DNA from: Phlyctochytrium arcticum
Taxonomy: Eukaryota > Chytridiomycota > Chytridiomycetes > Chytridiales > Chytridiaceae
Assembly (NCBI GenBank): GCA_025602905.1
Contig: JAHLKI010000035.1
Coordinates: 178,963 to 242,962 of the forward strand
Length of the DNA: 64,000 nt
Direction of reading: 5' to 3'
Shown: positions 15,527-59,200 of the stretch, in pieces
How the letters are laid out: each line of letters opens with the position of its first letter
Position numbering within the stretch: position 1 is the stretch's first letter
Position numbers and translations under genes: made by a program
The notes under the pieces: generated by a model
Told to the model about the DNA's origin: nothing
Databases searched by the model: none
Seen by the model: the letters and a program-made list of their open reading frames with translations, nothing else

Positions 15527-18500
15527 ATGACAGAGAAGCGCAACAGGCAGTCGGTTGCTGGTGACGCGTCAAGCCTGTTCCAAGTACCCGACGGTGAAGG
15601 TGAGAAAGCATCGCAAGGTTCTGGAAGATGGCGTGTAGGGTGCTCACGGCAAACATAGATATCTTTGCGTCCTTCTCGGCCCCGAGTCCCTCGAAAGGTA
15701 CCAATCGTTCGTTGTTTGTGTGAGTTCGCTGCCCATGCAACCCATTTTGACCCAACTTTGTCAGTAGGCGGTGAAGTATCATCAGCATATTCAGGACAGT
15801 TTCACTCCAGCCTCTATCATTCACGGCCTGAATCCAATCCCCCACCCACCAGTGTGAGCAAAGATGTTTTCTACCAGCATGCCGGAGCAACTTCAAATGG
15901 AAATGTAACGTTGCTCCCGAACGCGGGCAACCTCAACTCAGGCAAAGCTGCAGAAGTGTCACAGCAGCAACAAAATCTATGGGAAACGGAGTTTGATATT
16001 CCCATCGAACAGCTGACCACTTTTGATCACATCGAGCCAGAGTCAAGCGGCCCATCCGATCAATTGCCGGTAGTTCATGAATTTGCCAATTCAACTAATG
16101 TAGATACTCGGCTTGGTGGCGACGCCAGTCTCCAAAGTACTTCCGCAGCAGTGGCTTCAGATTCAGGGTCATCTGCGCTAGCCCCGCCACCGGCAGCCGA
16201 AACTTCATTGAGCACCACCTTTGAAAATCTGCAACTTGGACCAGAAGATTTTCAGTACCAGGAAAACGAGCACAGTGAAGCACCGCAAACAATCAGTGAA
16301 CCAGCAACTTTGCCAACCATAGATAACTCTGAACCTCAACACGCGGAAGAACTATGGCGTGGTATTGTAGAGGTTGGTCTTGATACAAATAAAGGTGAGC
16401 TGATCGCATTTCAAACAGGGCATACTCCATTCGAGTTCCAAAATGCCAGCGATGTTGATGAGTACGCCGGTGTCGCTAGTTCCACCAATAACCTTCCTAG
16501 CGGATCTTACGCCCAGGATGTTACCGACTACAACAGCGGCTCCGTGAATTACGCACAGGGAATGGCCGTTGACGCGAATATAGTCTCTGTTTGCCCGAGT
16601 TGCTCAATTCCAAATGGTTCTTCCGCAAATTTTTGCGCAAATTGCGGATTTCGAATAGCTCCCGCCAATTCGAACCAGTCATCCAATCTCCAACTCACTG
16701 CCGGTCAGTCTTCATCTTTACCTGCCAGCGAAAGCTATATTCCCGCAAACCATTATCCAGCTCCTTATACGCTGAGTGATCCGTCATCACAATACTCGTC
16801 ATTTGACCTAAACTCTTCCGCACATTCAGCAGCAGCGCAAAACATCGGGAGGGCAAGCTTGACAGAGCAAGCAGGCTCTTTTTCTACGCCACCCTGGTCT
16901 GGACCAGCTCATACCGCATCGCAATATGCAGGCCAAGAAAGCTATACTCCTACATCGACAGTACCCTATACCACAGCATCACAGCACTTTGGACGGTCCG
17001 CATCCGTACCTCCGCAACCGGAGGCAGGTCGAGATCCAGCCCTTGTTGATAAATTCCAGCCGAAGCGCTCAAAAACTCCATCACATACCGTCAATCGTTA
17101 TGGTCAATCTATCCACCCTTCGCAGACTGGAGTTGTGACGAGCGCAGTTTGGGAAGGGCAGGTATCCGAAAAGCCGACACATGTGTTACCCTCGCATGTA
17201 TTTGTTGATACTTTAGGACGGACTGGCGGACACTGCCTTGCCTCGTTCTCAGCGTCCGGACGTCTCACATACATCACGGTTACCAGGCAAACGCGATATG
17301 TCACGGACAGGCAAGGTCAGTCCAGTACGGTTCGCAAGTGCTACTCTAGTGCTGTGACTCTGCAAAGTGTAAATCAAGTCTTGTCACAAACCGTCAAAGA
17401 GAAATTTCAACAGTTCCCTGCCCCACTTGTAGGGCCCAAGGCGAAACTTAAGAAAAAGGATATTTTGGCATATATTGACCAAATACAGTGTTCCCAATAC
17501 ACACCAGAAATCACACAATCTGAGGACCACAGCTCAACTCTGTTTGATACGCATGAGGCCGAAAACTTTTCGATACTACTTTGTATTCTGAAAGTGATTA
17601 TTGAACACGATGGATTGCCCTCTTCTTTTCTGTAAGATACGATGTGCTGCCGAGGCGCTTTTGTGAAGTGTCTAACTGCTTTATCAGTGCGAAGTTTGAC
17701 CTTTCAGAGATTAAGAAAATTTTACTTCTGGCAGATGCACCAAAAGGAACTTCTCCTCATGCAATGATTGAGGATGCTCTGGTCGATGGAAAGCTAGAAG
17801 AGGCATACGAGATTGCAATTGCCCACCGATTATGGTCATATGCTTTAATTCTTGCTGCCTTTGCTGGCAAGCAAACATACAATCGTGTGGTCGCGTTGTT
17901 CATAGCGTCGGAATGTGAAAGATCCCCCGGTTTTCGAACAGACGCTGGAAGTGGCGAGAACTTGGAGGAATTTCCCGTTCTGAAGTTTTTCGTCCAGCTG
18001 TGTGCTGGTTCCGACTTGGATTGTGGTAATTTGAGCATTTCTTAATCCGAACTTACAACTTACGATCTTGATAGTAGCCGCGCTGTTTGTTCAGCAGAAC
18101 AACAATCAGGAATTCAACCCAGACATCTCTGGCAGTATTTCTCATTGGCGCCGAATACTCTGTCTTCTTCTCGCCAATCGCGCGCAGACAAATCAAATGA
18201 TGATTGTGGCGCTCGGAGATCGCCTACGCCAACTGAATTTGGAGATGGCTGCACAGTGTTGGTAAGCTCTTCAAATCGAATGACGTATGAGCATTGCAGC
18301 TAAATACCATTGTAGTTTCCTGTTTTGTGATCCGTCCCTTGTCGGTGGCACAGAGTCCACCAAGAGCAGAATTGCAATGATTGGGGTTTCACATGTTCAC
18401 CGCCCATTGACGTACTTCCGAGGAATAGTGTGTTTTCGCCTTACTGAAATCTATGAGTTTTCACAAACGCTCAAAGGCCGAGGAACGGACGGTATTTTGC

Positions 18501-21141
18501 CCCACTTCCAAGCACACAAATTATTGTACGGACACATTCTAGCGGATTTGGGAATGAGAGATCTGTCTCAGAAGTATTTCGACAGTGTGGAGTACACATT
18601 GAAGGGATATGCGCGTGGTAGCCCTTACTTTCACCGAGTCTTTGTGGAATCGCTTGCAATATTATCATCCCGTTTACATTTATCCAATCCGCAGGCTGTG
18701 CTTACTGGAAAGGATCCAGGAGGGTGGCTCAGCAAAATAAGCAGTTTCGGAGTTCGGAAGTTGGATCGTTTAATGAGCAATGCAATTGGAGAGAATGATC
18801 CAATTTTGACATCAGGAGCATCAGGGCCCGGAGATGGGAACATCAATACGTCAACTCAATATCCATTCCCGGTACAGCCCGGAAATCTTGATGGCACGCA
18901 AATACATACCGATGCATCTCTCACGCAATCACCGCAAAACATGCCCAACCAAGATTACTACCATGGCATGACCCAACCAACATATGATGGTACGTCATCC
19001 TTATCCCACTATCAACATGACAGTCTGGGTCAACAATCATGGCCAACGACGCAGCAATCGTACTCCGCACATTACAATTACAATAACGCTGACTCCACCA
19101 CCGGGGATTCTGGCATTGCGCAATACATTCACATGAACACTGACCCCACCACCGGGTACTCTGGCAATAACACCGCGCAGTACGATTACACTAACACTGA
19201 CCCCACCGCTGGGTACTCCGGCAATAACACTGCGCAGTACGATTACACTAACACTGACCCCACCACTGGGTACTCTGGCAATAACACTGCGCAGTACGGT
19301 TACAATACCACTGACCACACCACTGGGCATTCTGGCGATAACACTGCCCAGTACGATTATCATCCCACTGACCCCACTACCGGGTATTCCGGCAATAACA
19401 CTGCGCAGTACGATTACAACTCTCAAGGTGCAAGTACATACCCCCAGAACAACACTACACAATACGAATACAACGAATCTACCGGTACCCCTGCATATTC
19501 TGGGGTTAATCACTCACAGCCCGATTACAACCATCCCAACAGCGCATATGCTTATCCCGGTGCCAGTGATCCACAGTATGATTACAGCAGTGCTTCGGTT
19601 GCACCGACGTACGTAGGCGCAGGTAACGCTCAGTATGACTACAGCGTTCCGGAGAACACAGTCGCGTATCCAGTGGACGGTGGTGCTCAATATGATGTTA
19701 ATGGGTACTCACATCCTCAAGCTGGATCGTACTCTGAAACTCCTGGCGAGGATAACACACAGCAACATCCAGATGAGGGGCGTCACCAACCGCATCTGCC
19801 GAACTATCCGGAACCATTAATGTTGGGTAATCCATCTACAGCGGAAGATGATCATCCTACGGCATATTATGGATTCCAGAATACACCGGCTGACTATCGG
19901 AATGACATACTGCAGCAGCCAATGCATTTCCAACCGCCAGCGCAGAAAAAAGCGGTTCAAGACCACGGCATCAGTCATGCACAAAGTGAAGCACATGAGC
20001 TACAGGTAATTAGCGTCGCTCGAAAATATAACTTGTGGCTTATTTTTGTTCGTAAAGCACGAGAAGACAAACAGTTCCATATACAACCCTGACTTCACCG
20101 CAACAGGAGGAGATCAAACGATTCACTCATATGGATCCCAAACATATGCTGGAAGTTCAAATGCACGTAACGACCAGGTTTCCAATCAGACCCAAAATTC
20201 CAATCAATCTTATTTGCCGGCGGCGGATGACGACGATCTCGGGCTAAACAATTCTTCTGCTAGTAAACGGGGTCAGAACGCTACACAGGATAACAAGTCG
20301 CGGGGCTCAGAGCAGGACTCCAAGAGCAAAGATAACTTGGATGACAAAACAACAAATGAAAAATCTCGGGGGATCTTTTCCGCGTTTGGCTCCTTATTTG
20401 GTGCACGCGGCAAAGCTGGCGAAGAGAAACAGGCAAAGGACGTAGGCAATATACCCACCAAGGCCAATCTCGGAGAGAAAAGCGCATTTTTTTATGATGA
20501 GAAATTGAAGAAATGGGTGAATAAGAAGGGAGGAGCTCAGGAAGATGAAGCGAAATCTTTGCCACCACCACCCATGTCTAAATCAGCTTCTGCCCCTGTT
20601 TCACGTTTGGCGACACCAGGTTCGTACACCCAGATCTGATTATGCATCAGCGCAAATCTAATGGAAGCTTAGGCCCTCCAAATGCACTCACAGGTGATGA
20701 TCGCACTAGTAGCATGGTTCCTGAAGCACCACATTCCATGGGCATCGGTGGAGTAGCTAACAAACGCGCCGGTGGTACACGAAGAGGTGCCAGAAATCGA
20801 TACGTGGATGTGTTCAATCCGAACCCGAGTCAATCTACGAACAGCCCCCCTCCTGCCGCGTCATTTTTACCTGCTGCAACATTTACTGGAGCCGAACCCC
20901 GAGTGCTAACAGTAAGTTGTGAACATATTTGAAACCTGTGTTTATGCTGAACGATTTGCATTGTTAGCCTGTTCTGGCAGCTCATTCAAGCACGTCATTT
21001 ACCAACGTCTTCGCGAATCCCGCGAATCCATATGAGACTTTACGCGAAGATCAACCATCCGGGCACGATTACCCAGATCGAAATGAGGCACTTTCTCCCG
21101 CAACGATCGCCCGTGTAGCTGCAGCCCCTACCGATATCTGA
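15527..21141 (+). CDS. SEC16: COPII coat assembly protein Sec16
   Basis: Scaffold of ER exit sites that organises COPII coat formation. The start at 15527 gives MTEKRNRQSVAGDASSLF; two short introns then join DGE|DIFASFSAPSPSK|VGGEVSSAYSG. The N-terminal ~450 residues are disordered, apart from a zinc ribbon CPSC-CANC at 16592-16645. The central conserved domain and alpha-solenoid follow (KSRTPSHTVNRYGQ-like sequence, FDLSEIKKILLL, MIEDALVDGKLEEAYEIAIAHRLWSYALILAA, RILCLLLANRAQ, HKLLYGHILADLGM, GSPYFHRVFVESL). A Tyr/Asn/Gln-rich section contains 57-bp tandem repeats (19157-19420). The C-terminus has the Sec16 signature LGEKSAFFYDEKLKKWVNKKG and RRGARNRYVDVFNP. The splice near 20598-20650 is uncertain (weak donor). 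The last exon ends with TGA at 21139-21141. The family call is secure. Confidence 0.9.
16592..16645 (+). other. Zinc-ribbon motif inside SEC16
   Basis: Two CxxC knuckles, CPSC and CANC, spaced by 10 residues and followed by GFRI, match the zinc-ribbon pattern seen at the ends of many proteins (CPxCG-x10-12-CxxCG). It lies in the otherwise disordered N-terminal half of Sec16. I do not recall such a motif in yeast or human Sec16. Confidence 0.65.
19157..19420 (+). repeat. 57-bp tandem repeat coding 19-residue units in SEC16
   Basis: Units begin at 19157, 19214, 19271, 19328 and 19385, exactly 57 bp apart, so the reading frame is kept. Each codes for a variant of YSGNNTAQYDYTNTDPTTG. The last unit is partial and decays into further QYDY-containing copies to about 19700. 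The composition is prion-like (Tyr, Asn, Gln, Ser, Gly). Confidence 0.85.
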
Positions 21142-29856: not shown

Positions 29857-32800
29857 ATGCCTCGTCGTCCATTCACTGCGGCGTTACGCACTTTCATTGA
29901 ACAAAAAGATGCAAGTCTCTCCAATGCAATCGACTTTGATCTGTATCAAGCTAGCCTGCAGAACCACGGTAACAAAACTGAGGAAGATGCGGAATGGGAC
30001 CAGCTCCGCCAAGAGATTCTCGATACTGTTTCGGATTCGGCTTCGGAACTTGATTCCGTTAACTCATGGGGCTCCCGGGACGAGTTTGGCTCTGATCTAC
30101 CGTTTGGTGCGAAATATGAACTCATTGACAACGGCGGCCCTCAACCTTCGGTCTATCACAATGTTGACGCAGTTGAGGCGAAGGACGTTCTGACAGCACC
30201 CACATCGTTCAGTGCTCCTGCAGAAGCCATTACTTCAGACCCTCCGGTGTATGACAGACATTGGCTGCTGCGACAGTGCGAGCTGCACGTTGGCAGTGCA
30301 GAAAGCGTGACATTGACACCTACCCAATTTTGTACCGACATCTTTGCGATGCTGCGGTCTTCGCGTAATGATGAAGACATACAGAGTGGTCTGGTGGACC
30401 TCCTCGGCTACTCCAATTTTTCCTTGATTCAGACACTTCTATTGCATCGGCAGACTATTGTGAAGCAGATTACGGAAGATGCTGCGACAACTCCAGAGCG
30501 CAAAGTGGATCAGGATCAACAAGTGGAACGACTCTCGAATCAAAACGGTCGTCCCCCTGTGTATGGAGCGCAAGTTACCATAATGTCTGAAGCTGAAAAG
30601 CTTCACGTGAAGCAGTCAAGAAAAGAGCAAAAAAAGAGAGGCAAGACTTCAAAAGAGGAAACTACCATGATGGCCAGTGCTACGATGCTTGGTCTGGATG
30701 GCGATCATCTTCGAAATGTACGGGAGGAGCAACTTCGAAATGCCACCAGCGCGCCTTTACCAAGTTATGATGGACTTGGAGCCAATCAGGAAGTGCTTCC
30801 GAACGTATATCAATCGTCGACGGGTGGCTCCACTCTATCATCGTTTGGCTCACGGTTCGTGTTACCCCGTGGAACTACTCGAGAAGATTATAAAGATTAT
30901 GAGGAGATCATCATTCCCACCTCGCGTTTAGAACATCCAGTAGTCACGAATAAGTTAATTCCGATAAGTGACTTGGATGAGTATGCGAGGGCCGCATTTC
31001 AAGGTTACAAAAGTCTCAACAGGGTACAATCCATTGTTTATCCTATAGCATACAAAACGAACGAGAACTTGCTTATTTGCGCGCCGACGGGAGCCGGAAA
31101 GACCGACATCGCTATGCTTACAGTATTACGCACGCTTATGCAGAATGTGGTGAACGGAAACTTGGCGAAAAACAATTTTAAAATTGTGTATGTTGCTCCC
31201 ATGAAAGCACTTGCCGCAGAAGTGGTAAGGAAATTCTCCAAGCGCCTGGGGGGTTCCGAGAGCAGTGGCGGACTTGGGATTTCCGTCCGCGAATTGACGG
31301 GCGATATGCAACTTACAAAGGCGGAAATCAGTGCAACACAAATGATTGTAACAACACCCGAGAAGTGGGATGTTGTGACACGGAAGAGTGTTGGAGACAC
31401 CGAATTGACACAGAAAGTACAGCTTCTAATTATTGATGAAGTTCATCTTCTTCATGAGGACCGTGGATCTGTTATTGAGAGCATTGTGGCCAGAACCCTA
31501 CGTCAAGTTGAGTCCAGTCAGTCGATGATTCGGATTGTAGGCTTATCCGCTACACTTCCAAATTATCTGGACGTTGCATCGTTCTTGGGCGTAAACAAAT
31601 ACCAAGGACTGTTTTACTTTGACTCCTCCTTCCGACCTGTCCCGTTGGAGCAACATTTCATTGGCGTGAAAGGAAAGGCTGGGTCACATATGATGCGGCG
31701 CAAAATGGATGAAGTATGTTATGACGAGGTTTCCAGACTGATAAAGGACGGCGGGCAAGTTATGGTGTTCGTTCATTCTCGTAAAGACACAGTGCGGACA
31801 GCGCAGATGTTGAGAGATGAGGCTTTGAGCTACAATGAGCTTGGTCTCTTCGATACGTCGCAGGATCCGGCGCATGGACTTGCTGTCAAGGATGTACAAC
31901 GGTCCCGAAACAAGGAACTCCGGGAACTTTTTTCGTCAGGCTTTGGTATCCACAATGCGGGAATGTTGCGATCAGATAGGAATTTGACGGAACGGCTATT
32001 TGAAAGAGGACTTTTAAAAGTTTTGTGCTGTACAGCGACACTGGCCTGGGGTGTTAATTTACCCGCATTCGCCGTGGTGATTAAAGGAACTCAGATATAT
32101 GACGCGAAGAAGGGAGGCTTTATAGATTTGTCTATTCTGGATGTTTTGCAAATCTTTGGACGGGCTGGTCGCCCTCAATATGAAGACCGGGGCCTGGGAG
32201 TCATTCTAACTTCCCACGATAAATTGAGTCACTATGTATCTGCAATGACCCAGCAACATCCTATCGAGTCACGATTCGCTGAGAACTTGGTTGACAATCT
32301 GAATGCGGAAATTTCCTTAGGAACCGTCACCTCTTTAGACGAAGGTGTACGATGGCTATCGTATACTTACCTTTACACCAGGATGAAGAAAAATCCATTT
32401 CAATATGGCTTGAACTGGTCTGAAATACAGAATGATCCATCACTCAGCAAACGGCGGAGGGATCTACTGATTGCAGCTGCCAAAACTCTGTCGAAGGCGC
32501 AAATGATTATTTTTGATGAGGAGCGAGGTTATCTGAACCCGAAAGATTTGGGCCGAACTTCCAGCAGCTTCTACATACAAACTGCCAGTATTGAGATCTA
32601 CAATGAGATGATGCGACCGCGCATGACAGAAGCGGACGTTTTGTGCATGCTTAGCATGAGTACGGAATTTGAAAATATCAAAGTACGCGAAGAGGAAATC
32701 AAGGAGCTCAAAGGTTTAGAGGAGAATGATTGCATTTGCGCAGTGAAGGTAATGCTCTGTCTTATTCTATTTCATTCACCGTTTGCTAAATCTGGGGCTG

Positions 32801-35800
32801 TATTTGAAAGGGCTCCGTAGATACCAATTATGGCAAAACAAACATTCTTTTGCAGGCTTATATTTCCAGAGCGCGAATCGAGGATTTCGCTCTTGTATCC
32901 GACACAGCCTATATTGCACAAAATTCCGCCCGCATTCTCAGAGCTTTGTTTCAAATTGCAGTGAACCGAAATTGGGGCCCATCCGCTGCTGTCATCCTGT
33001 CGCTTTGCAAGTCTGTGGATAAAAGACTATGGCCCTTCGAGCATCCACTTGCGCAATTTGATGTTGCACCTGAAATTGTACGCAAATTGGAAAATGTGTC
33101 ACCCCCTATCACGGTGGATGTCCTGCGCGAAATGGATGTCGTTGAGATTGGGCAGTTGATCCGACATCAAAAGATGGCACCTACTGTCATACGGTGCGCC
33201 GAGCAATTTCCATCCCTATTTTTGCACGCTACCGTTGCCCCCATCACCCGAACGGTACTCCGAGTTGCTCTCACAATAACCCCAGATTTTGTTTGGAATG
33301 AGCGAGTTCACGGATCTGTTGAGCCATGGTGGATCTTTGTGGAGGACTCTGAAAATTCGGACATTCTTTACAGCGACTACTTCCTTCTTCGTAAACGGCA
33401 ACAGGATGCAGATGTAGAATTAAACTTTACAATTCCGCTCCCGTCCACCCAATCCACTGTCGACGAGCTGCCATCACAGGTCTACATTCGCGCGATTTCC
33501 GACAAATGGATAGGTGCTGAAGTGGTTATCCCTGTTTCCTTCAAGCACTTGATATTACCTGCTTTGAATCGTACACCACATACAGACCTATTGAACCTTC
33601 AGCCTCTACCCATTACAGCGCTGCAAAATGAAGTTTTGGAGAACATCTGTCGGCCGCGTTTCGAGTACTTCAATCCAGTACAAACGCAGGTCTTCCATAC
33701 TCTTTATCATACAACTCACAATGTGCTTGTTGGTGCCCCTACAGGCTCTGGCAAGACTGTAGCGGCAGAATTGGCCTTGTGGGCTGCTTTCCGCGATTCC
33801 CCCAAGAGTAAGGTCGTATACATTGCACCTTTGAAAGCCCTGGTTCGAGAGCGGGTGCAAGATTGGGGTGGCCGTCTGACTTCCGCCATGGGTCGCAAGC
33901 TTGTCGAGCTGACAGGGGATGTCACACCTGAGTTGCGAACGATACAGTCTGCGGATATTATCATCACTACACCTGAGAAATGGGATGGAATCAGTCGAAG
34001 CTGGCAATCACGGTCTTACGTTAAAGACGTGTCGTTGGTCATCATTGATGAAATTCATCTACTAGGAGGAGATCGTGGTCCCATTCTGGAGGTTATTGTG
34101 ACACGCATGAATTATATTGCCGCGCAAACCAACCGGAAAATTCGAGTCGTTGGCTTAAGTACAGCACTTGCCAATGCGAATGATCTGGGTGATTGGCTTG
34201 GAATCGGCCATGTGGGGCTTTTCAATTTTCGACCCTCTGTGCGTCCTGTACCTTTGGAAATTTACATTGATGGCTTTGCAGGCAAGCAATATTGTCCTCG
34301 CATGATGTCAATGAACAAGCCCACGTACGCCGCGATAATGACGCACTCCCCCAAGAAGCCGGTGTTGGTTTTCGTTTCGTCTCGGCGACAAACTCGTCTT
34401 ACGGCTCAAGATTTGATTTCTCTATGTGGATTGGATGAGGATCCCAAACACTTCTTACATATGGCAGAAAGCGATTTGGAGATTCTATTGTCGCAGGTCA
34501 AAGATCAGCACTTGAGGTTAGCTCTCGGCTTTGGCATTGGTTTACATCATGCCGGCCTGGTAGAAAGCGACAGGAAGATCTCGGAAGAGCTGTTCATCAA
34601 TGGCAAGATACAAGTCTTGATCGCCACCAGTACCTTGGCTTGGGGAGTCAACTACCCGGCCCATCTTGTTGTTATCAAAGGCACTGAGTTCTACGATGCG
34701 AAAAGTAGAACTTACGTTGACTTCCAAATCACTGACGTATTGCAGATGATGGGTCGGGCGGGTCGGCCACAATTCGACAATTCCGGAGTGGCAAGAATAT
34801 TGGTGCATGATGTCAAAAAGAATTTTTACAAGAAATTTCTGCATGAACCATTCCCTGTTGAAAGTAGCTTGCACACTTGCCTGCACAACCATATCTGTGC
34901 CGAGATAGTCAATGGTAGTATCAAGAGCAAGCAGGATGCAATGGATTATCTAACCTGGACATATCTCTATCGACGCTTGCAAATGGTAAGGCTAGAGGAC
35001 TTTCTTCTAATAATAACTGTTCTAATTTGTTTCAGAATCCCACTTATTACGGCGCTCCTGATGGCTCCCGAACGAGCATCAACATTTATATGTCTCGCGT
35101 TGTGGAATCCGTGCTCAGGGATTTGTCCGCGGCGTCATGTATCGAGGTTGACGATGACTTTCACGTAAAGTCCACTGATCACGGTCGTATTGCATCGTAT
35201 TACTATCTGGATTACAAAACAATGGATACCCTGTCAAAGCGCTTGGGTCGCGGATACGTCATGTCCTCGTCCAAGCTGGGAGATTTTGCGACTTTGGTGC
35301 ATATTCTTTGCGACGCTACCGAATTCGCAGAACTTCCGGTACGGCACAACGAAGACCAATTAAATCTTGATTTGGACCAACGGCTTCCCGTCGGATTAAA
35401 TGAAAGACCGACGAGTGTTTTCGCGGCCCGGGCGTACCATCATGTACCACCCTACCAGCACGATGACCCTCATGCAAAGGCGTTCCTCCTTCTCGCGTCT
35501 CATTTCACCCGCTTGAGCAGTCTCCCATCCCCCGATTTTTACACCGACCTAGTGTCTGTACTTGATCAGTCTGTCCGAGTAATGCAAGCCATGATCGATT
35601 TAGCCGTGGACGAGGGGAGCTTGTCGACATGCCTTGGGATTATGGAGTTACTCCAATGCGCTAAGCAGGCAAGGTGGCCTTCTGACTCTAGTCTAACAAC
35701 TCTACCGAACGTGCATCAAGATACAGCGCAATTATTCCGTCACGAGAATCGTCGTCTTGCAAGTACGGCACAAATAGCAGGATTGGCACCAAACGACCTT

Positions 35801-36292
35801 GAGAAGGTGCTGCGAAATGCGAATCTTTCAAAAATAGCAATCAATGACATCACTCGAGTTGTTGCAAATCTGCCTTTGCTAGAAGTCAAATGCACTGTTG
35901 TTGGAGGTGTTGAGAAGCTTCCGGGACTGTGGAGTGTGAGAGCTGGACAAGAGCATGAAATACAAGTCTCTGTGACTCGGTTGAATGCCTTCCGTCAGAC
36001 TGGAAAGGGTCAATCATTTAGAGTACATTCCCCACTGTTTCCCAAAGCTCAGTATGAAGGATGGTTCGTTGCTCTCGCTGATGTAGCTGAAGATGAAATG
36101 ATTGCTATGAAGCGAGTTTCTGCTTCTGGTGACAAAGCGGGGAAGGACAGCCGCGGAAAATACAAGCTAGAATCAAGGCTTTCGTTTGTAGCGCCGGATG
36201 AACCAGGAGAAGCTGACCTCCGCATCATGGTGATCAGTGACGGGTATAGAGGCCTAGACCAGAGTATTAATGTCCGGCTCTTAGTCAAGTAG
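29857..36292 (+). CDS. SLH1: ASCC3/Slh1-type Ski2-like RNA helicase
   Basis: Large helicase with two RecA-Sec63 cassettes. Human ASCC3 and yeast Slh1 pull apart collided ribosomes in ribosome quality control. Three exons: 29857 to about 32747, about 32813-34985, and about 35036-36292. Cassette 1 has [28 protein letters not shown] and [13 protein letters not shown]. Cassette 2 has [19 protein letters not shown], the STALANA motif III usual for the second cassette of this family, and [12 protein letters not shown]. Two Sec63-type units follow; the C-terminal one spans about 35190-36280. The first splice joins CAVK to [17 protein letters not shown]. Total length is about 2,100 residues. The N-terminus (no Brr2-type PWI region, region ending [11 protein letters not shown]) favours ASCC3/Slh1 over Brr2. 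All ATPase motifs are intact in both cassettes. Confidence 0.9.
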
Positions 36293-40195: not shown

Positions 40196-41280
<1,085 letters not shown>

Positions 41281-42902: not shown

Positions 42903-43325
42903 TTATTTTGCTCTCCAGCGCTGACTGCAGGCTACGGCATGCACGGACCAGCCATACTCGCGAGTGTGCACTGCGCTGAAGGTCCTTTTTCCACAATCAT
43001 ATTTGTAGAACGTATCTATTCCGGACGCATGTAGGGTGTCTGGAACATTCGCTCCGTGTATCTTGGTTGCGGTGTGTGCGTCCGAATAGACGTAAAGGCC
43101 GGCGTAAGCATGTGTTCGGAGGTCTCGGAAAAGGATAAGAAAATGAGGAGACTTGGTGGCACCAAGGACCTATGTTTTATGAGCAATCTGTGGGATTGTG
43201 AACCGACTTTTCGTCTACTTACCTCTAGAGCCTCGAGCTGCACGGTCTGATTCACGGCACCCGCCAGGCACACTTGAACTAATGCATTTTTAATGAGAAC
43301 TCGATTGGATGGCTCTTTCTTGATG
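42903..43325 (-). other. CKK domain of the CAMSAP-like gene
   Basis: Two exon parts flank the intron at 43170-43222. The last exon is 267 nt, 88 codons plus stop, open throughout only in the frame fixed by the splice. Residues typical of CKK domains are present: SNR-LIKNAL at the start, the FLILFRD strand, GLYVY, and YKYD-x5-FS near the end. Confidence 0.82.
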
Positions 43326-46300
43326 GCTTTCGGGGGAATACTGGGTTTTGTGAGCCGTCGGTGTGGCGTCCGACGAGGAATGTGACTATCGTGTACCATG
43401 GGGGAAAGGCCAGAGCCCCCTTCGGAAGCTGTATCATCAATCCGCTTAAGAGGGGTGCTCTTCACGCCAGCGTGTTGTGAGACATGTGCTCCCTCTTGGG
43501 GCGACGGGGTATGCGTCTCCAGCTGGTGTACGTTCCGGGTTGAGCTTGCACTCTGCCGTCGTGACTTGGGTGATGATGTATTGGTACGTACCGAAGCGGC
43601 GCGGGAACCGTCCACCCGATTGACGTCGATGCGGGCGGTTTCAGCCTTTCCAGACTCATTATCATCATCAGTTTCAGCTAGCGGGTAAGATCTCAAGCCG
43701 ACAGCCCCTCGTCGCATTCCATTTTTACGCACAGAACTCTCAGTATGGTCCGGCGTTGTAGCTTCTATTTCCGCAGCAGGTGCAATTTGTGGGAGGCTTA
43801 TTTTGGTAGCATGAGCCGCGGAAGGTTTCGACAAGACCTCTACTACCTTGGTATCACCGCTCCGATTGCCTACGCTATCAGTAGAGGTGTGATATGGCTG
43901 CTGGGACATGGGTGGCAGGGTATCGTCTGCGGGTACTGGGAGGGGAGAAGGATGAGAGCGGATGCGGATAACATTGGCGGAGAGAGGAGTTTTCCGATAT
44001 GGTTTTACTTGCGCCGAGTTTTCCTCATCCGTCACCCAACCCTCATCTTCATCTATAGCAGGAGCGGCATCTTGCTTGTGCAGGGGGTCGGGGTCTCCGT
44101 TGTCGTCCGAGTCCGTTTCCCAGGCTTCATCCTCCACTGTAGCAGCCTCGCGTGTGGGCGAAACCTCCGGATGTGACCACTTCGGTGACCTTGAATCAGA
44201 ATGTTTGGTTCCCTCCCCTGTTTCTCCAAGTTCGAGCGCCATTGGTGATCCAATTTGCCGATCGGATGAGCTCAGATCGTCGATTTCGACACCGCGCAGC
44301 TGGGAATCAGCGGATGTAAGCCGTTTGCGAGTCGGCGGCCGCTTGACTGGTGGTATAATGTTATCATAGCAGACGCTCCGGGTTTGTGCCCCGGCAAAGT
44401 CTATATCCTTACTCGCAAGCGCAGTCGTTGGGGGGGAATCATGTGCGGCCGAGCCGTACCGGCTATCCGGCGCAGATTCATACATCTCTTCGAAGCTGCT
44501 GTTTTTCGGATTGATCAGCTTACCATTGCCTCGTAAAGATTGCGATGAGGTGACTGTGATAATCTTTGCTGTAGACAGCGCAGGGAGTGGAACATGCTTG
44601 GTGACTGCTTGCTTCTTTGGTGGCAAGATAGAATCCCTGCTGGCAGGTTTCACATGCCCTGTGGAAATATTTATATTGCTGTACCCCTCTAAGGTAGGCA
44701 AAACTGCCCTCAATTCCGCATCTCCCGTATTAGCCCGTAACTTATGACGTGGGGAGTCAATCAACCGTGTCTCTGGCCATAACTTCGATACAGGCATATC
44801 ATGTAATCCAAGGTCCTCATTCTGCTCATTATGCAAAACACGTTGCGAATGTGTATCTCGAGAACGGGGTGGTGCACAGAAGGATCTGGGCACGTTTGTT
44901 TCTTCACTATATCGGTAACTCGGGTCTTTCAGGTCTATACCGGCTGAGTTCCGGCAACTAGTACCTTGACTGTCCCTAAGCCATTTCCGAGCTGATCGGT
45001 GCGGATCAGAAGGGTTCGCAGAAGGCAGCGCATTGGATGCGGATTGGATATTGGCGTGAGACCCCTTGGCAAGGTACGACGCCGCGAATGATGTTATAGT
45101 CGAATGCACTTCGCTCGTGAGCTTCTGTTGTTCGAAAGAATCATGAGTAAGTGGGAGAGAACCGGCCGCAGGTGTAGCAGGAATAATGACTCCATAGCTT
45201 TCGGAAGGTATCTCGTGTTGCTCAGTGGCTGCAGCTTTCGACGACTGCGCTCCCGTATGGCTATTCCGTGAAGTCCTAAAAGCGCATCCACTTTCTCCTG
45301 AATGTCCAGAGTTTTCGTGCACCGCAGACTGCGGGGGCTCACTTTGGGATTGCGGCTGTGTTTCATGATTGCATGGAGGGGTATCAGGCGGTGGTAATGT
45401 ATCGGGTTTAAAGGGAACGTTATTCGGGAAAGTCACACACTCAGATGCCACTCCTGTAGCCGGTTCGGAATTATACTGTAGAATATTGCCAGCTACGGGT
45501 AAGTCCACTAATTTATCGTTACGCATCTCAGGTGGGTTTGCTTTCTTATGCAAGGTTTTTTGGCGACGCGTAATCGATTTTGAAAGCACTGCTGCACTTG
45601 TGCTAGCCTCGACACACCCACCCTGGTTTAGGTTAGGTCCAGTTTCAGAAATGTCTGTCTCTTTGCCCAAGTGGGAGAAGGCGCCCTTGATATTGTCTTT
45701 GGTAGGTGCCGCAGCATGCAAGCTCGATGCATCACTCTCTTTTCGGCTGGTAAGCACATATGTCTTAATTGATGTAGACAAACGCGTTTTAGTGACTGAT
45801 TTCAACGCTTCGCCAGCCGCTTTGGTGCTCGAGTGACCGACAAGCTTCCCGCAGTGCTCATCTTGTTCCTCGCGAGAATTCAAACTGCAGCCATCGCTTC
45901 TTTTCGGAAGTTCTAAGGCATCACTGGCCTCGCGCTCAAGATGCTGCATTCCGAACCTGTTTATACCAGAGATGATTATTAAAGAGATGCGGAATAACCG
46001 TCAAAAGATGTCGACTGACCGAACTAGTTGCGCCAAAACACCTCTCGCGCACGCGCTAATTATAGTACCCGCCCGCTTGCAGTTGTCTACCACATTCGCC
46101 ATTTCCTGTCCATCAAAACTGATTTCCAGTTTCATACCACTCATGATATCGTTAAGTTCAACCCAGGGATGGAGCGGGCTAGGGACTGTTTCCGCAGTTG
46201 TACGCGACAAGTGTCGGGCTAGTGTCACAAGGTGTTTGCCATCAATAAAATCGTCAATATCATCGATGTTCGGTATAATGCAACCGCGGCTCTCCAAAAA

Positions 46301-48018
46301 CGTGTGTGCCCACATACAGAGCCCGTCTTGCTGGTCATACGGTGAAACGGACATGCTCCATCCGTTGTTACTAGATCCGCAAACTGAGCTGCGCAGTCGT
46401 TGAAAATTGCATTACACTTTAGCTTACCGCATGGAAAGTACCATACTCGCCACAGTCAGATCGTGTGATTCGGCGACCATAAATGCCTCGATTAGGTTGG
46501 AGTGGATGCTCTGCCAGAAGTTCAAAAAATGTACAACTCTGAGCTACATTTTTTAAAGCCTACCTCATAGAAGGGTGTGTCATCTTCTATCATGGCTATC
46601 ACGTTCTCACGCCACCGCCCGGTAAATTTGGCATATCCTCCCGCATCCAGCCTAGCCAAGTATCCGGGAGAGCCAAAAATACTCAATGACATTAGTCGAT
46701 ACAGGGTCGAAATCCGAAGGAGGTTGATGATCGCTCGAGGAATGTATATCTGTGGGGATTGTTACATTAGATCACAATGATGAACGCGTCAGCCTAAAGC
46801 GAAAATACTTACGGATTCGCTTAACGATGCATCTAGATTATGCCAGGTGAGGTTGAGGTCGGTGCTAACAAAGCTCCAAGCATCATCACGGCCGTCAATT
46901 CGATCTTTGTTGTTTTGTAACCACCCTGTTGAAGCGTAAGTCTGCTTCAACTTTGGCATCCTCGCGCAGACGCTGCGCACCAACCATCGTACAGCAACTT
47001 TAAAGGATGGCTATCAAAAATGTTATGCCGGAGTTATTGCGTTGGAAAGAAGTTACACCAACCTCTGTGAGCTCATATTGCCTGTCCTCCCCACGCTCGT
47101 AGTCACCTTCTATTTCAAACTCGTTTTGAGAGCTTCTGGCCCCGGCCGGGGTTTCCTTCGCGAGCGTACTTTGCGTGGAGGAATTGATCGACTCTTCTTC
47201 ATCTTTCCCTTGCAACCTTGTTACCCCTTCGGAATCGTTTTCAACCCCCTTCTCAATTTTTGACGCGTCCCAGGTATTATGTGAATTCTTGGAACATTGT
47301 GATTCCGCCCAATTCCGTATCGCATGACCAACTGCCGTACAAGCGTTCCAATCCCCGTCTTCCATTCGCCTGATCAGAGTAACGATGATGTCGCCCGTAA
47401 AATCGGCATTTTCTGGCAAGTGGTCCATACGCAAATTCAATCGACTCAAAGCTGCTATCAGGTCGGATGCGACGTCTGTGCTCAGCAATTCTGCCGAAAT
47501 GAGTTTTCCGCCATATTTCTTCAAATCGGCGATGCTTGGGTCCAAATTGGCGATAATCTACCGAGTACAATAAGGGTAAGTGTAACTATTTAAGATGCAA
47601 GGCGAAGCGGTGCAACCTTCAGGTAGGGAACGCCGGACAAAAAATCTGCTTTTGACACTTGATCTTCATGGGGAAATATTTGCAAGTACCACTCCAAGAG
47701 CTTGGCGTCCACTTCCGGCTCGTGTATCTTCTCCGGTAGTATTCCCAATAAAGCGGTCTCCTCCATGTCGTTGAGCGATCCTGAATTCCCTTGATGGTCG
47801 GCTTTTCTAATCGCACATGAGATGCGTCCCTCTTGCAAATGCCTCTGGCAAACTGTTTCTTTTTGGATGTCCGCATATCGTTGAGTTGCTGGACCTGTGT
47901 GGTCGGGCCGTGCATTGTTATGATGATCGGCCTGTCCTGTGGGCGGGGTTGTCATTGTTAAGCCGTCATTTTCGTCTTTTCCGCTGCATGCTCCCTTCCG
48001 GCCTACGGATAGATTCAT
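42903..48018 (-). CDS. CAMSAP/Patronin-like microtubule minus-end protein
   Basis: About 1,500 residues from at least seven exons. The N-terminal part has KLISAELLSTDVASDLIAAL and IEDDTPFYESIHSNLIEAFMVAE, resembling the CAMSAP N-terminal region. A calponin-homology-like segment follows (DGLCMWAHTFLESRGCIIPN, DDIDDFIDGKHLVTLARHL, about 46000-46350). A long disordered, Ser/Pro-rich middle part comes next (about 43330-45949). The C-terminus is a CKK domain: SNRVLIKNALVQVCLAGAVN to LEALE, a 53-nt intron (43170-43222, donor GTAAGT), then HFLILFRD, AGLYVYSD, FYKYDCGKRTFSAV and the stop TAA at 42903-42905, about 120 residues in all. CKK domains bind microtubule minus ends. Reading through the intron gives a false tail, which would hide this domain. 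The start at 48018 and the 5' exon borders are less sure than the CKK end. Confidence 0.8.
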
Positions 48019-53208: not shown

Positions 53209-56200
53209 TTACCAAAACGCACACCATCCAATGTAGCACTTTACAAAAGAAGTTCAGAAAAATTGCAAGTTTCCACCAAGGATTTTGAATAATTACCTGA
53301 CAAAGATTCTCCAGCGAAGTGGCTTGCAATATCAGACGATGCACCTGATTACGAACGTCCAGTGTTTGTTGCGCCTTAAAATCCTTGCCTGGGTCCATAC
53401 GTTAGTGGACTGAAAGATCCTAATAATGGCTTATTTTACCAGTGAGCTTGTTCGAGACGCGATTTATTACTGAAAGAGCTCGAGTATTTAATGCCTCCGG
53501 TTTACCGACTTGGTCATCTTCTGTGTTTCACGAGTGAGCAAAGGGAATAGACATCGAATTTCAGCTACCAAGCTACCATTGGCGATCAAGTCATTCTCAT
53601 TCCTTTGCAGCTTTCTGCTGGCGGGGAAATTCCTGGTAGGTACCGGTTCGTCTAGCAGATCTGAGGGCACGGGGCACACTTAGTGATTACTGCTGCAAAG
53701 ATCATGATATGATACGTACCATTCTCCAATTTTGTTTGTCGCATTGGTTTCGAGTCTTTGCACTGCAGGTTAGATCGATAATCCTGCACTTCCATTCAAA
53801 TAGACCCCTTACCAGGCTTGGGACTCGCCGTCGATAACAACCGCCAATTGATAAGTGGATCGTAAACAAATGCCTCCAACACCGCCATAAGACTGTCTTT
53901 GTTTTCGCGAAGAACGCTCATGACGTGTTCGCAAGTGATCCTGAAATTTCCCTCAATGCCACTAACCTGAAGCAACGTACGTTAAATGGTGCACATGGCT
54001 TCAGAACTGCTCCGCTTCTTACTTCCATGGCATTGATCAGCATCCGAGTCAGCCGGAAAGGAATTTTCTCCGGGAATTTCTCTCGGTGCATCGCCACCTA
54101 CGCTATGAGTTGGTCATCTGCACTGGGAGGCAAAAACCGGTTGATAACTCACCTCGAAGCAATCACCGAAGTCGATATGTATAACTTTGCCCGTAAACCG
54201 ATCCAACATTAGATTGGAGGGGTGACGGTCCCCGAGTCCAAGTATATAGCCCACCATAGACATTACAGCAAGTGAACGGGTGTAATTTGTTCGCCTATCC
54301 AACCAAACCTTTCTTGTCGAGTTAATTGACGGGTTATAAGCCGAAATGTCCCCGCTTGTTTTACCTCTGAATTTTTGCTTTTCAGCCATAAAACCTTGTA
54401 CAGGTCTTGTCCAGTGGTGTTTTCAAGGGCATATTCAAACACTTCCACTTTCTGCAGCAATGTCAGATTGTCATAATCTGGGGCCATCTGGTTCACAAAT
54501 TTCAGCACAGTACTGAAACAGCGCTCGTCAAATGGTCATACTCACTTGTAACATCAGGCGGTGTTCAATATTCAGCAGAATTTTCCGACTCTCCCGATAA
54601 TCCCGGATCAGCGTGTGCAAGGTATCACAGTGCGGGACCCATCCGATTAATCCAGAGTTTGGGGATAGCGGAATAACCGGATATCGATGGATGCTCAGAT
54701 GCCGTTTGAAAGTTTCCGCACCGGTAGCCAATAATGTGTTGACAAGCCCGAACAACTGCATTACCCTCTCATCCTGTCGCAGATCCTCGTGACCTAGAAC
54801 AATGTTAACTAGGACTCATGTACATCTACTCCTTCAGTACCTTTGAGCAGGTATTGATAATCTTTCCCGTCGCTTCCCCGAATAGTCAGTCGACGGGGCC
54901 TTTGTTTCGAAGTCATAACGGTCAAAGTCGGTACAAATGACGCAATCTTGACAATGGGCTCGGAGCTACGATACGTTCCTATACCAAAAGTCTTTTAAGG
55001 TAACTGTCTCCGGAAACTCCAAGGAAAATGTAGTATGACCTGGTACTGCAAGCTCCAAATCCCTGGCGGCCAGAAGTTTCGGGGAGACATATTGTAACTC
55101 CAAAGTTGTAAGCTGCGGCAGTTGCTTGTTTATCCGACGGAAAACCTTTTTAAGGTTGAGAGAAGACTCAGAGTAGCTACTGCGGTTCTAATCTTACCAG
55201 GTAATACAAGTCCCATGCCTGGTTAATATCAATCACGTTTTGTGTTCGTTTAAACCGCTTGCACCAATCCAGTGCTTCCTGCAAATCTCGACCAAACGCT
55301 TGGTTGAAAGATATTTCCCGTAATGTCTCTGGTCCCTTGAAGCAAATGTAAATAAGTATCTTCGTATCGTCAATAAGATTTGACAAAAAAAAATCCCACC
55401 CTTTCCAACATTTGGTGCAAAGGCTCCAGTGTAGTAAACATCCCTTCAACGTTATGGTCACCAAAATACAGCCGCGATGCTTCCTCGAGTCCTTCGTGCC
55501 ACATCTCATGCCAAAGTATTGCCACTCGAATCAACTCTTGACTCACAAGTAGTGCCTTTTTGAAACACAACGTTAGTGTCATAAATCGAAATCACGGGAT
55601 GACAGCACCTGCTCGACTAGTAAGGCGCTATGCAATCGCATTTTCTCGATGATTGCGAGGGCAGACTTTTTCCGAGATACACTTTGCGATTTGGAGGCGA
55701 CAGTTAACGAATAAACCAAAGCTTGGGGATGTTCCTTGCCCACATCTGACAGTAGTTGGTGGATCAAGCGGCGAACGTGTGAATTTGGTGTGTGAATTCG
55801 AGCAATTAGCTGAGCAAAAAGTATTAATCTTCGCGAACTAACTGAAACACCAAGCCAAATTGTACATACTTGCGGAATCACCTGCAACCAAGTATCAATG
55901 CTAACGCTATTGAAACCCTCTCCGATAGCAATGTTGACATCCGGTTGATATCCATACTTGAACCATAATGTCAATAGACGCAATGTATCTTGAAGGGAAT
56001 TCCCTTTTGACAAGGCAATAGATCGGAAGAAACCTACAGCGAAATCATAAGAATTGTTGCAGTCAGCTTCTCCAAAATCTTCCTCTACCTTGTACGGATG
56101 GTACTACGTGCGCCACTAATATCTGTGGCGGAATGCTATCATGCACTTTTTCATAATGGGAGATAACCTCAAAATTTGCAAAAGCCCATGCGTGCCAGGC

Positions 56201-59200
56201 TTTATACCAGTCCTTGTCACAGTGAGTAGCAGCCAGGTACGAACGCAGGATTTCCGGGATCACACCCTGAGATGAGTTAGATAAAATTGTAAATAACGTC
56301 AATTACGAATCGCACCTCATTAAGTTCTTCTTGCAACGCGCTTTGCCACTCTCCCAGTTTTAAATAACATCGTGCGAGCAAGCGTACTGGTTCCAGCTTA
56401 ACAGCATCACCATTATGGCAGTCCACGTGGGCATGAATGTCATGTAGGGTAGTCAACCCAAGTCGTTCTACAATGCTCTTTGTAAAATCCTTCATAGTGA
56501 CAAAGGCCTGTTCTTTCATCCCCGAGGTCCAGTGGTGTTTAAGACAGGCATATATGACTTGTGGTGCATCATCACCGATCGCCTATATGGCTGGTAAGGG
56601 AGCAATACGACAACAAGCATACATAATAATCATACCAGACTGCCAAAGTCTTTGGTCTCAACCTTGAGCAAACCCGTGAGTGTTTTCTGAGACAATCCCA
56701 ATCTTCCGCTCTTTCGACATAGATTTGCAAACTTGATCCACATTTCCATATCCTCTTTGGGCGAGATAACCAATGCCCGAACTTTCAGGATTCGCTGCCA
56801 CACTTCGACGTTACGCTGGCATCCGCGAAGTCTGGAACACTGTAAACCAATGGTCTGAAAAAGCGGGGCGCCTTGGGTCTCACCTCGCCATCCAAGTCTT
56901 CCTGATAGCAGCTTGCCGGTGAGGTTGCTCATAAAGCTGCTTGTATGTAATAATCTCCTCCAATTCTGCGAGCATCTGAATACGCACAACCACACTTGGC
57001 AAGGAGTACAGTTAGTAAAGCCCCATAAACACTTTTGAGATCTTCACATACTTATAGGCCCGACTGTAACTTTCGCTCACCAAAGCCATCAGTTCTGTAT
57101 TTAACAGATCTCTAGCCTTGTTAATGAATTGTGACGCTTGGGGGTAAAGGTTCCGGTGCAAAGCGAGAATGGCTCGGAAGAAGACACTGTCAGGAGATTC
57201 CTGCTTCATTACCGCTATATATTCGTCCATCAATTCCCATTGACCCAATCCCCATGCGGCCGCTGCTGCAAGCGGGGCGACGGCCTTTCTGACATCGCTT
57301 GTGGCAAAGGCCCAGCGCTCTTGAGCAAGGTATGAAAGAGCATCCCATTCACCAAGATTGTGGAGACATCGCATTCGTCCGAGAGTCGCCTCAACGGCTA
57401 AAGGATCTTCGGCTTGCTTCTTCTCATACGCCGCTAGACCATCCTCCCAACGGTGAAGTTTTTCATACCATGACTCTTTCAATTCTACGTCGTGGTTCTG
57501 CTGGGCATATGTCAATATTCCTATGGCAGAGTCTGGCTGTTGCAGTTGGTTATTAATGCTGATGAGCGCTTCGATGGTGTTGGTGAGAGGCTCTGCGATA
57601 AATTCAAGCTCCTTGTAATGGAGTGCTTTAGCATAAGCATGACACTTGGCAGCATACAGCCCCAGCGTTCTGATATCTATTGGTAAGGCTTTGTCGTCAT
57701 GCTCCATGAATTCCGCTAAGTTGAGTAAGGTTTGCAGGATCTCAGGTGGTATATTTGACGATGTTAGCGCTGTTTCCAAACATCGGACTAGTTCGTCCTG
57801 GAACTGATCATAAAGTTCACTCCAGCATGACACAAAGCTTGCGTTGAACAATTCGCGTGCTAAAGGATAATAGACACCCGCCAAACTTGCGCATGCTCGT
57901 AGTGCATGAGATGGCGACTCTTTCAACAATTCAACACTGAAGCGACGTATCCACTCTGCCCAATCATCCTTGGTTGAGCGTTGGGAAGTCTCCCAAGCTT
58001 TCTTCAACTGCTGTTGATTGACAGGTAATTTTTTGGATGCGATATCGGCAGGAGCATCCTCAGTGAGTGTCTCATTGAACCTAGGTCAACCGTTGGTGGA
58101 CAAACTACATAGATTTCGTATGAATGGTACCTGTCTTCGCTTTCAGTGCCCAATTCCTGAGGTAATGGTTCATTTTTGAGCAACTTGGACACCAGCATTT
58201 CGTACTTTTGATGCTGAATATGATGTCGGACCAGGCTCTATAATCTGGTCGTTAGGAATGAGGATACGAAACGCTCGTGTTAATGTACCTTATTGATTAA
58301 CGGAACAAAAATCGCGAAGTCGTTGACAAGTTGATAAATCAATGCACAGAGAGTGTCCATGGCAGCTAATCGTAATTCTGGCTGTGGGATGGCAAGTACT
58401 CGTACAAGTGGATGGATAATGCGCGAGGCCTGGTCAGTGAAGTTGATTTTTTTGCATAAATATCCGATGGTTTGAATGGCGTGGCGTTTGAGATGCGTTG
58501 GTGCATCGGCTTTCTCGAACTGTCGCACAATGACTGGTACAACCAAATGCAGATATTCTTCCAGGTTTGACCCGAATGTTATCATCGCATGCAAAACCTT
58601 CTGAGTGAGTTGGCGCTTCTCCGTAGTGTCCGCCTCAAATATCTGGAGCATTTGTGGAAGTAGGATAGGAAGGTAAACCTTAAACTCTCCATCTAGCGCC
58701 ACGGCGATGGCTTCTACTAGCGATAAAATCGTAATCTGAATGTTGGACGTCGGACTCCAATATTCTTGAATCAGTGATAAAAGATCTTGCAAATATCCAC
58801 GGATATGCTGCTTCACAATTGAGACTAGGAGACCAAGTTGTTGAAAGTGGAACTCCAACATGCCAATGGGGCACGCTCTCATCATGCTAAGGAATGGTGG
58901 CATTATCTATTGCAAAGATCAGAAGAAATCCACTTTCACGCAAGTGACCACATTACTTGAGGGAGGAAGGGGACGCATTTCAAGCTCAAGGTCTTAAAAA
59001 TATACATGACTGCCTGAATGACCGCTGTATGATGAATGCTGAGTGACGAATCTCGTAGGATCTTCATCAGAGCAGACACGGCCACCGTAGGGTAATAGTC
59101 CTCAGATGATGGACTGCCTGCTGTGGAACTGGACACTTCCTCCCCCTGCCCTCCTAGCACACGCTCCGGGTCCCTTGATGTGATCTGTCAACGAACTTAA

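Follow-up and report, generated by a model that had tools for sequence, protein, structure and literature searches.

One published account describes the CAMSAP family as animal-only (PMC6678760), and another states that it arose with animals (PMC4016758). CKK domains have already been reported outside animals, in Naegleria and Phytophthora, by a third study, which names Phytophthora a fungus and points, through its reference 2, to a proposal that CKKs bound minus ends in the last eukaryotic common ancestor (PMC6868217). A 2025 study that surveyed chytrid genes for centrioles and MTOCs does not name CAMSAP in its accessible part (PMC12659703), and the main text of an atlas of flagellar proteins in fungi, from 2026, contains zero occurrences of 'camsap' or 'patronin' (PMC13358043). 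Our search of the literature on CAMSAP, CKK and Patronin in chytrids, fungi and early eukaryotes yielded, among the matches listed and in their accessible parts, no report of one in a true fungus. Phytophthora infestans is an oomycete. The common-ancestor proposal is reportedly that of Atherton et al. 2017, which may already include chytrids. A fungal member means that the animal-only view of the family is incomplete; it is surprising under that view, and less so if a CKK is accepted in the eukaryotic ancestor.

Here we describe a CKK-bearing gene of Phlyctochytrium arcticum, a species placed in Chytridiomycota by the NCBI taxonomy. Like animal CAMSAP1-3, Patronin and PTRN-1, its predicted product has a C-terminal CKK, a long linker ahead of it and a probable N-terminal region of CAMSAP type. 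We assign a probability of about 75% to the reading that this protein is a CAMSAP/Patronin member that combines its CKK with that N-terminal region, would hold microtubules, and has ancestral retention as its most likely origin. Such a protein would provide a means to test how a CAMSAP acts in a fungus whose cells possess centrioles and a cilium.

The gene model and its CKK domain

The window, the whole 64,000-nt stretch of DNA that we analysed, comprises bases 178963-242962 of contig C35 (242,962 bases), within an assembly of 31.5 Mb in 91 contigs. The CKK-bearing gene occupies window positions 47955-42903 on the minus strand in 8 exons, and its spliced product is identical, letter for letter, to the 1550-aa hypothetical protein DFS34DRAFT_330209 (P0001), deposited under P. 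arcticum. Its 7 introns are of the short GT-AG type, each 52-63 nt long. The first-pass annotation had begun the gene at 48018; the deposited model begins instead at the ATG at 47955, in the same frame. A splice model made by hand (start 48018, intron 2 at 47058-46998, intron 5 at 46427-46389; 1574 aa) was set aside in favor of the deposited one, in which intron 2 is 47062-47011 and intron 5 is 46427-46371. The 1574-aa model served as query for the spliced PF08683 score, the PDB search and the full-length protein search reported below. The features of the gene are, in window coordinates:

47955-47617, 47557-47063, 47010-46813, 46749-46564, minus strand: exons 1-4 (deposited model)
46510-46428, 46370-46020, 45956-43223, 43169-42903, minus strand: exons 5-8 (deposited model)
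47063..47955, minus strand: N-terminal extension, 278 aa, exons 1-2 (composition)
46310..46818, minus strand: P0001 residues 343-454, exons 3-6, resembling the CH-like region at the CAMSAP N-terminus (alignment to an approximate CAMSAP1 sequence)
46022..46369, minus strand: possible CAMSAP CH domain, exon 6 (likeness by eye only)
43313..45956, minus strand: long linker with few hydrophobic residues and without long Pro/Gly-free runs (composition)
43223..43312, minus strand: first part of the CKK, exon 7 (PF08683 positions 10-51, 27.8 bits, C35:222140-222274)
43170..43222, minus strand: CKK-internal intron, 53 nt, GTAAGT...ATAG (sequence, with the CKK profile continuous across the splice)
42930..43169, minus strand: second part of the CKK, exon 8, with FLILFRD, GLYVY and FYKYDCGKRTF (PF08683 positions 41-118)

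A complete CKK lies at the C-terminus (residues 1433-1542 of 1550), behind the long linker. Applied to the spliced CKK alone, PF08683 scores 94.9 bits (E 4.6e-27) over profile positions 11-118 of 119, and within the whole protein it scores 89.5 bits (cut-off 27). Exon 8 by itself reaches 54.5 bits (C35:221892-222128, window 42930-43166), and the unspliced match in exon 7 runs on to window position 43178, beyond the splice site. The claim that the 53-nt intron at 43222-43170 splits a complete CKK is thus borne out by the gain on joining (94.9 bits, versus 54.5 and 27.8 bits apart), and the CKK match that the first-pass annotation had set as a test for the C-terminal ~120 residues was found there, at residues 1433-1542. 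These two exon pieces were the only 2 candidates in a six-frame PF08683 search, making this the sole CKK found in the assembly.

Comparison with known structures gave the same assignment. A PDB search with E up to 1 returned 7 distinct sequences, every one of them a CKK: 6 from CAMSAP1 or CAMSAP3 (E 1.5e-11 to 1e-8) and the Naegleria domain 6QUY (E 1.2e-4). The chytrid CKK is 32% identical to that of human CAMSAP1 and 30% to that of mouse CAMSAP3, and its local alignment with mouse CAMSAP3 has a z of 27, with 0/500 shuffles scoring as well. Judged by sequence, the C-terminal CKK of DFS34DRAFT_330209 is beyond doubt, and the protein almost certainly belongs to the CAMSAP/Patronin family, broadly defined. 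The proposal that a fungal genome encodes a CAMSAP-like protein with a CKK likewise held up, and the fungus in question has a ciliary gene, IFT57.

N-terminal region, linker and candidate partners

Residues 343-454 resemble an approximate CAMSAP1 N-terminal sequence, not a database record (local alignment, z 10.4, 0/2000 shuffles as good); three other stretches of the chytrid protein, used as controls, give z of -0.7, -0.8 and 2.1. Taken separately, the N part of this region has a z of 7.9 (0/2000) and the CH part a z of 2.7 (48/2000). This CAMSAP1 sequence, whose individual letters are approximate, can be taken as a CAMSAP N-terminus because the two CAMSAP CH families match it with 182 and 122 bits and it aligns to mouse CAMSAP3 with a z of 85. 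The contrast between z 10.4 and the controls argues against a different history, in which a CKK became fused to an unrelated chytrid protein, so that the tail alone would be CAMSAP-like and the N-terminal part would have another function.

The database sequence of mouse CAMSAP3 fits such a fusion better, as its comparison with the whole N-terminal region was not significant: shuffles scored as well in 94/500 cases (BLOSUM62, gap -11), 32/500 (BLOSUM45) and 390/500 (BLOSUM62, gap -8), and for the three control stretches in 109, 442 and 300 of 500. For the N part and the CH part, respectively, the counts were 78/2000 and 554/2000 in local mode and 752/2000 and 1199/2000 in global mode. In the N part, mouse CAMSAP3 nevertheless finds its best local match in the same place as the approximate CAMSAP1, which counts against a fusion. 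When mammalian CAMSAP3 N-termini were set against the chytrid protein by profile-profile comparison, the match was not significant (local E 0.078, probability 0.7%), and hmmscan found no family above cut-off outside the CKK; both observations are in line with a fusion. Weighing these, we regard a fusion as unlikely and retain the reading of a family member, in which homology of the N part to CAMSAP is probable and that of the CH part possible on present alignments.

Searches aimed at the CH domain gave no match in the protein. Neither PF25532 nor PF11971 (CAMSAP_CH) was matched by hmmscan in fragments (E up to 10) or in the whole protein, and six-frame searches of the assembly with both families, run exon by exon, gave nothing in the window, which for PF25532 does not amount to absence; CAMSAP_CH appeared in the assembly as 5 rows on 4 other contigs, one pair of them over cut-off. 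Residues 270-590 used as a PDB query retrieved no sequence up to E 10. The AlphaFold model of exon 6 was unusable (pLDDT 36.2), and the methods disagree on where the CH part aligns, with Smith-Waterman aligning mouse FPNV to chytrid IPNI and MAFFT aligning it to another site. Pfam E1_dh matches in the protein (E 0.048 and 0.014) were below cut-off and were taken as chance. In the N-terminal extension, residues about 60-230 are moderately hydrophobic (33%), and residues 60-209 match no Pfam family at E up to 10.

The linker (residues 576-1430) looks disordered: it is 20.1% hydrophobic and 8.9% Pro, and its longest Pro/Gly-free run is 35 residues by a crude composition test, which is not a coiled-coil predictor. 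The spectrin-binding CC1 region (PF17095) had no match in P0001, whereas mouse CAMSAP3 scored 88.8 bits in the same scan; across the assembly, PF17095 gave one weak match on another contig, below cut-off. Compared with animal CAMSAP1-3, Patronin and PTRN-1, the chytrid protein thus differs in having no Pfam-detected CH domain, no CC1 match and no Pro/Gly-free linker run above that length, and in its additional 278-aa extension. The first-pass annotation had called it a full-length CAMSAP with a CH-like segment and an N-terminal region resembling animal CAMSAPs. The CKK and a probable N-terminal homology survive from this description, the latter through the approximate CAMSAP1 and not through the mouse CAMSAP3 database sequence; the CH-like segment is weak, a resemblance by eye for which Pfam gave no CH domain up to E 10, and CC1 was not found.

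Spectrin itself is likely absent from the host, because the 2 spectrin-repeat matches in the assembly are both below cut-off. A katanin con80 domain, which in animals is part of a CAMSAP partner, is encoded at G000:C40:164531-164955. Its presence counts in favor of a family member and, together with IFT57, fits a fungus that is ciliated and possesses a partner of katanin type.

CKK residues and minus-end preference

That the chytrid CKK binds microtubules can fairly be inferred from its sequence. By analogy with the solved human and Naegleria complexes, it would wedge between neighboring protofilaments, and the protein would hold microtubules. The most plausible sites are the free minus ends of cytoplasmic microtubules that do not arise from centrioles, or the vicinity of those ends. 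Targeting or regulation of the CKK may fall to the linker and the N-terminal part.

Individual positions bear on how such binding might be directed. The positions of human N1492 and R1528 (numbered by our own count) are Asn and Arg in the chytrid CKK, with a spacing of 36 in both proteins. When human N1492 is replaced by Ala, affinity goes up and minus-end selectivity goes down, and R1528 bears on affinity, according to PMC6868217. At the position of R1535 the chytrid residue is not Arg. Loop3 is one residue longer in the chytrid by phmmer and Smith-Waterman, not by MAFFT (two of three methods), and the MAFFT alignment contains no insert of the Naegleria type in loop4.

The Naegleria gruberi CKK (PDB 6QUY, 6QVE) is a point of comparison for a CKK that is likewise non-animal. 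According to PMC6868217, its loop3 is one residue longer, its loop4 carries a 34-aa insert, and it binds the whole lattice without a minus-end preference; the CKK of Phytophthora infestans, also from outside animals, is reported there to be without this preference as well. Because the Naegleria CKK has no minus-end preference, such a preference is not to be assumed for the chytrid domain. The chytrid protein could accordingly be a Naegleria-like lattice binder that coats or bundles microtubules and does not cap their ends. The whole-lattice binding of the Naegleria CKK, the missing equivalent of R1535 and the probably longer loop3 shared with Naegleria all speak for such a binder, but the chytrid CKK has no 34-aa loop4 insert, retains the equivalent of N1492, and is less similar to Naegleria than to CAMSAP1 and CAMSAP3 (best E 1.2e-4 versus 1.5e-11). 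We hold lattice binding to be a serious possibility, somewhat short of an even chance; it is a variant of a CAMSAP/Patronin member that holds microtubules, and the odds of the two overlap.

Origin of the gene and its genomic surroundings

A full-length protein search with E up to 10 recovered the protein itself alone among at least 7995 scored candidates, and a search with the CKK region recovered it alone among 54. The latter search was blunt, missing the mammals found by a consensus-CKK query, which recovered 3027 proteins out of 3056 candidates; of these 3027, the best 120 are 83-85% identical to the query, and the organisms named are mammals. At least 80 stretches of viral contigs fit a CKK pattern, none of them a relative.

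A gene acquired recently by horizontal transfer from an animal or protist, or contaminating DNA of such a source, would accord with the description of the family as animal-only in PMC6678760 and PMC4016758, and with the lack of a fungal relative among the matches listed in the protein searches. Several properties of the gene make such an origin very improbable, however. It sits 16 kb in from the end of a contig of 243 kb and has 7 introns of 52-63 nt; its GC of 51.2% and GC3 of 50.2% lie within the ranges of 7 neighboring open frames (47.0-53.8% and 45.6-65.3%); and its CKK is only 32% and 30% identical to those of human and mouse. The deposition of the protein under P. arcticum, the position within the contig and the GC and GC3 values also mark the contig as fungal, the condition set by the first-pass annotation.

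Retention from a common ancestor of animals and fungi is most likely. We consider it an even bet that a CAMSAP with both the N-terminal region and the CKK was already present in that ancestor and is still working in ciliated fungi, apparently without spectrin or CC1. If so, CAMSAPs would originally have served single cells by handling their free minus ends independently of spectrin, and this role would be no invention for animal tissues.

Several other genes in the window have features of their own. A PI3K-related kinase gene lies at 53841-58007 on the minus strand, with a FAT domain within 57012-58007 and kinase-domain pieces at C35:233103-233765 and 232803-232934 (window 54141-54803 and 53841-53972); stops inside one of these pieces may be introns. 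A 57-bp tandem repeat of 6.2 copies (19073-19419) falls within the open frame at 18287-20092, which has a Sec16 domain. Three open frames at 29857-36292, which we take to be a BRR2-like helicase, together carry two DEAD domains and Sec63 Brl domains. GAPDH (40196-41068, minus strand) has a GC3 of 65.3%, versus 45.6-50.7% in the other 6 open frames measured, which may reflect high expression.
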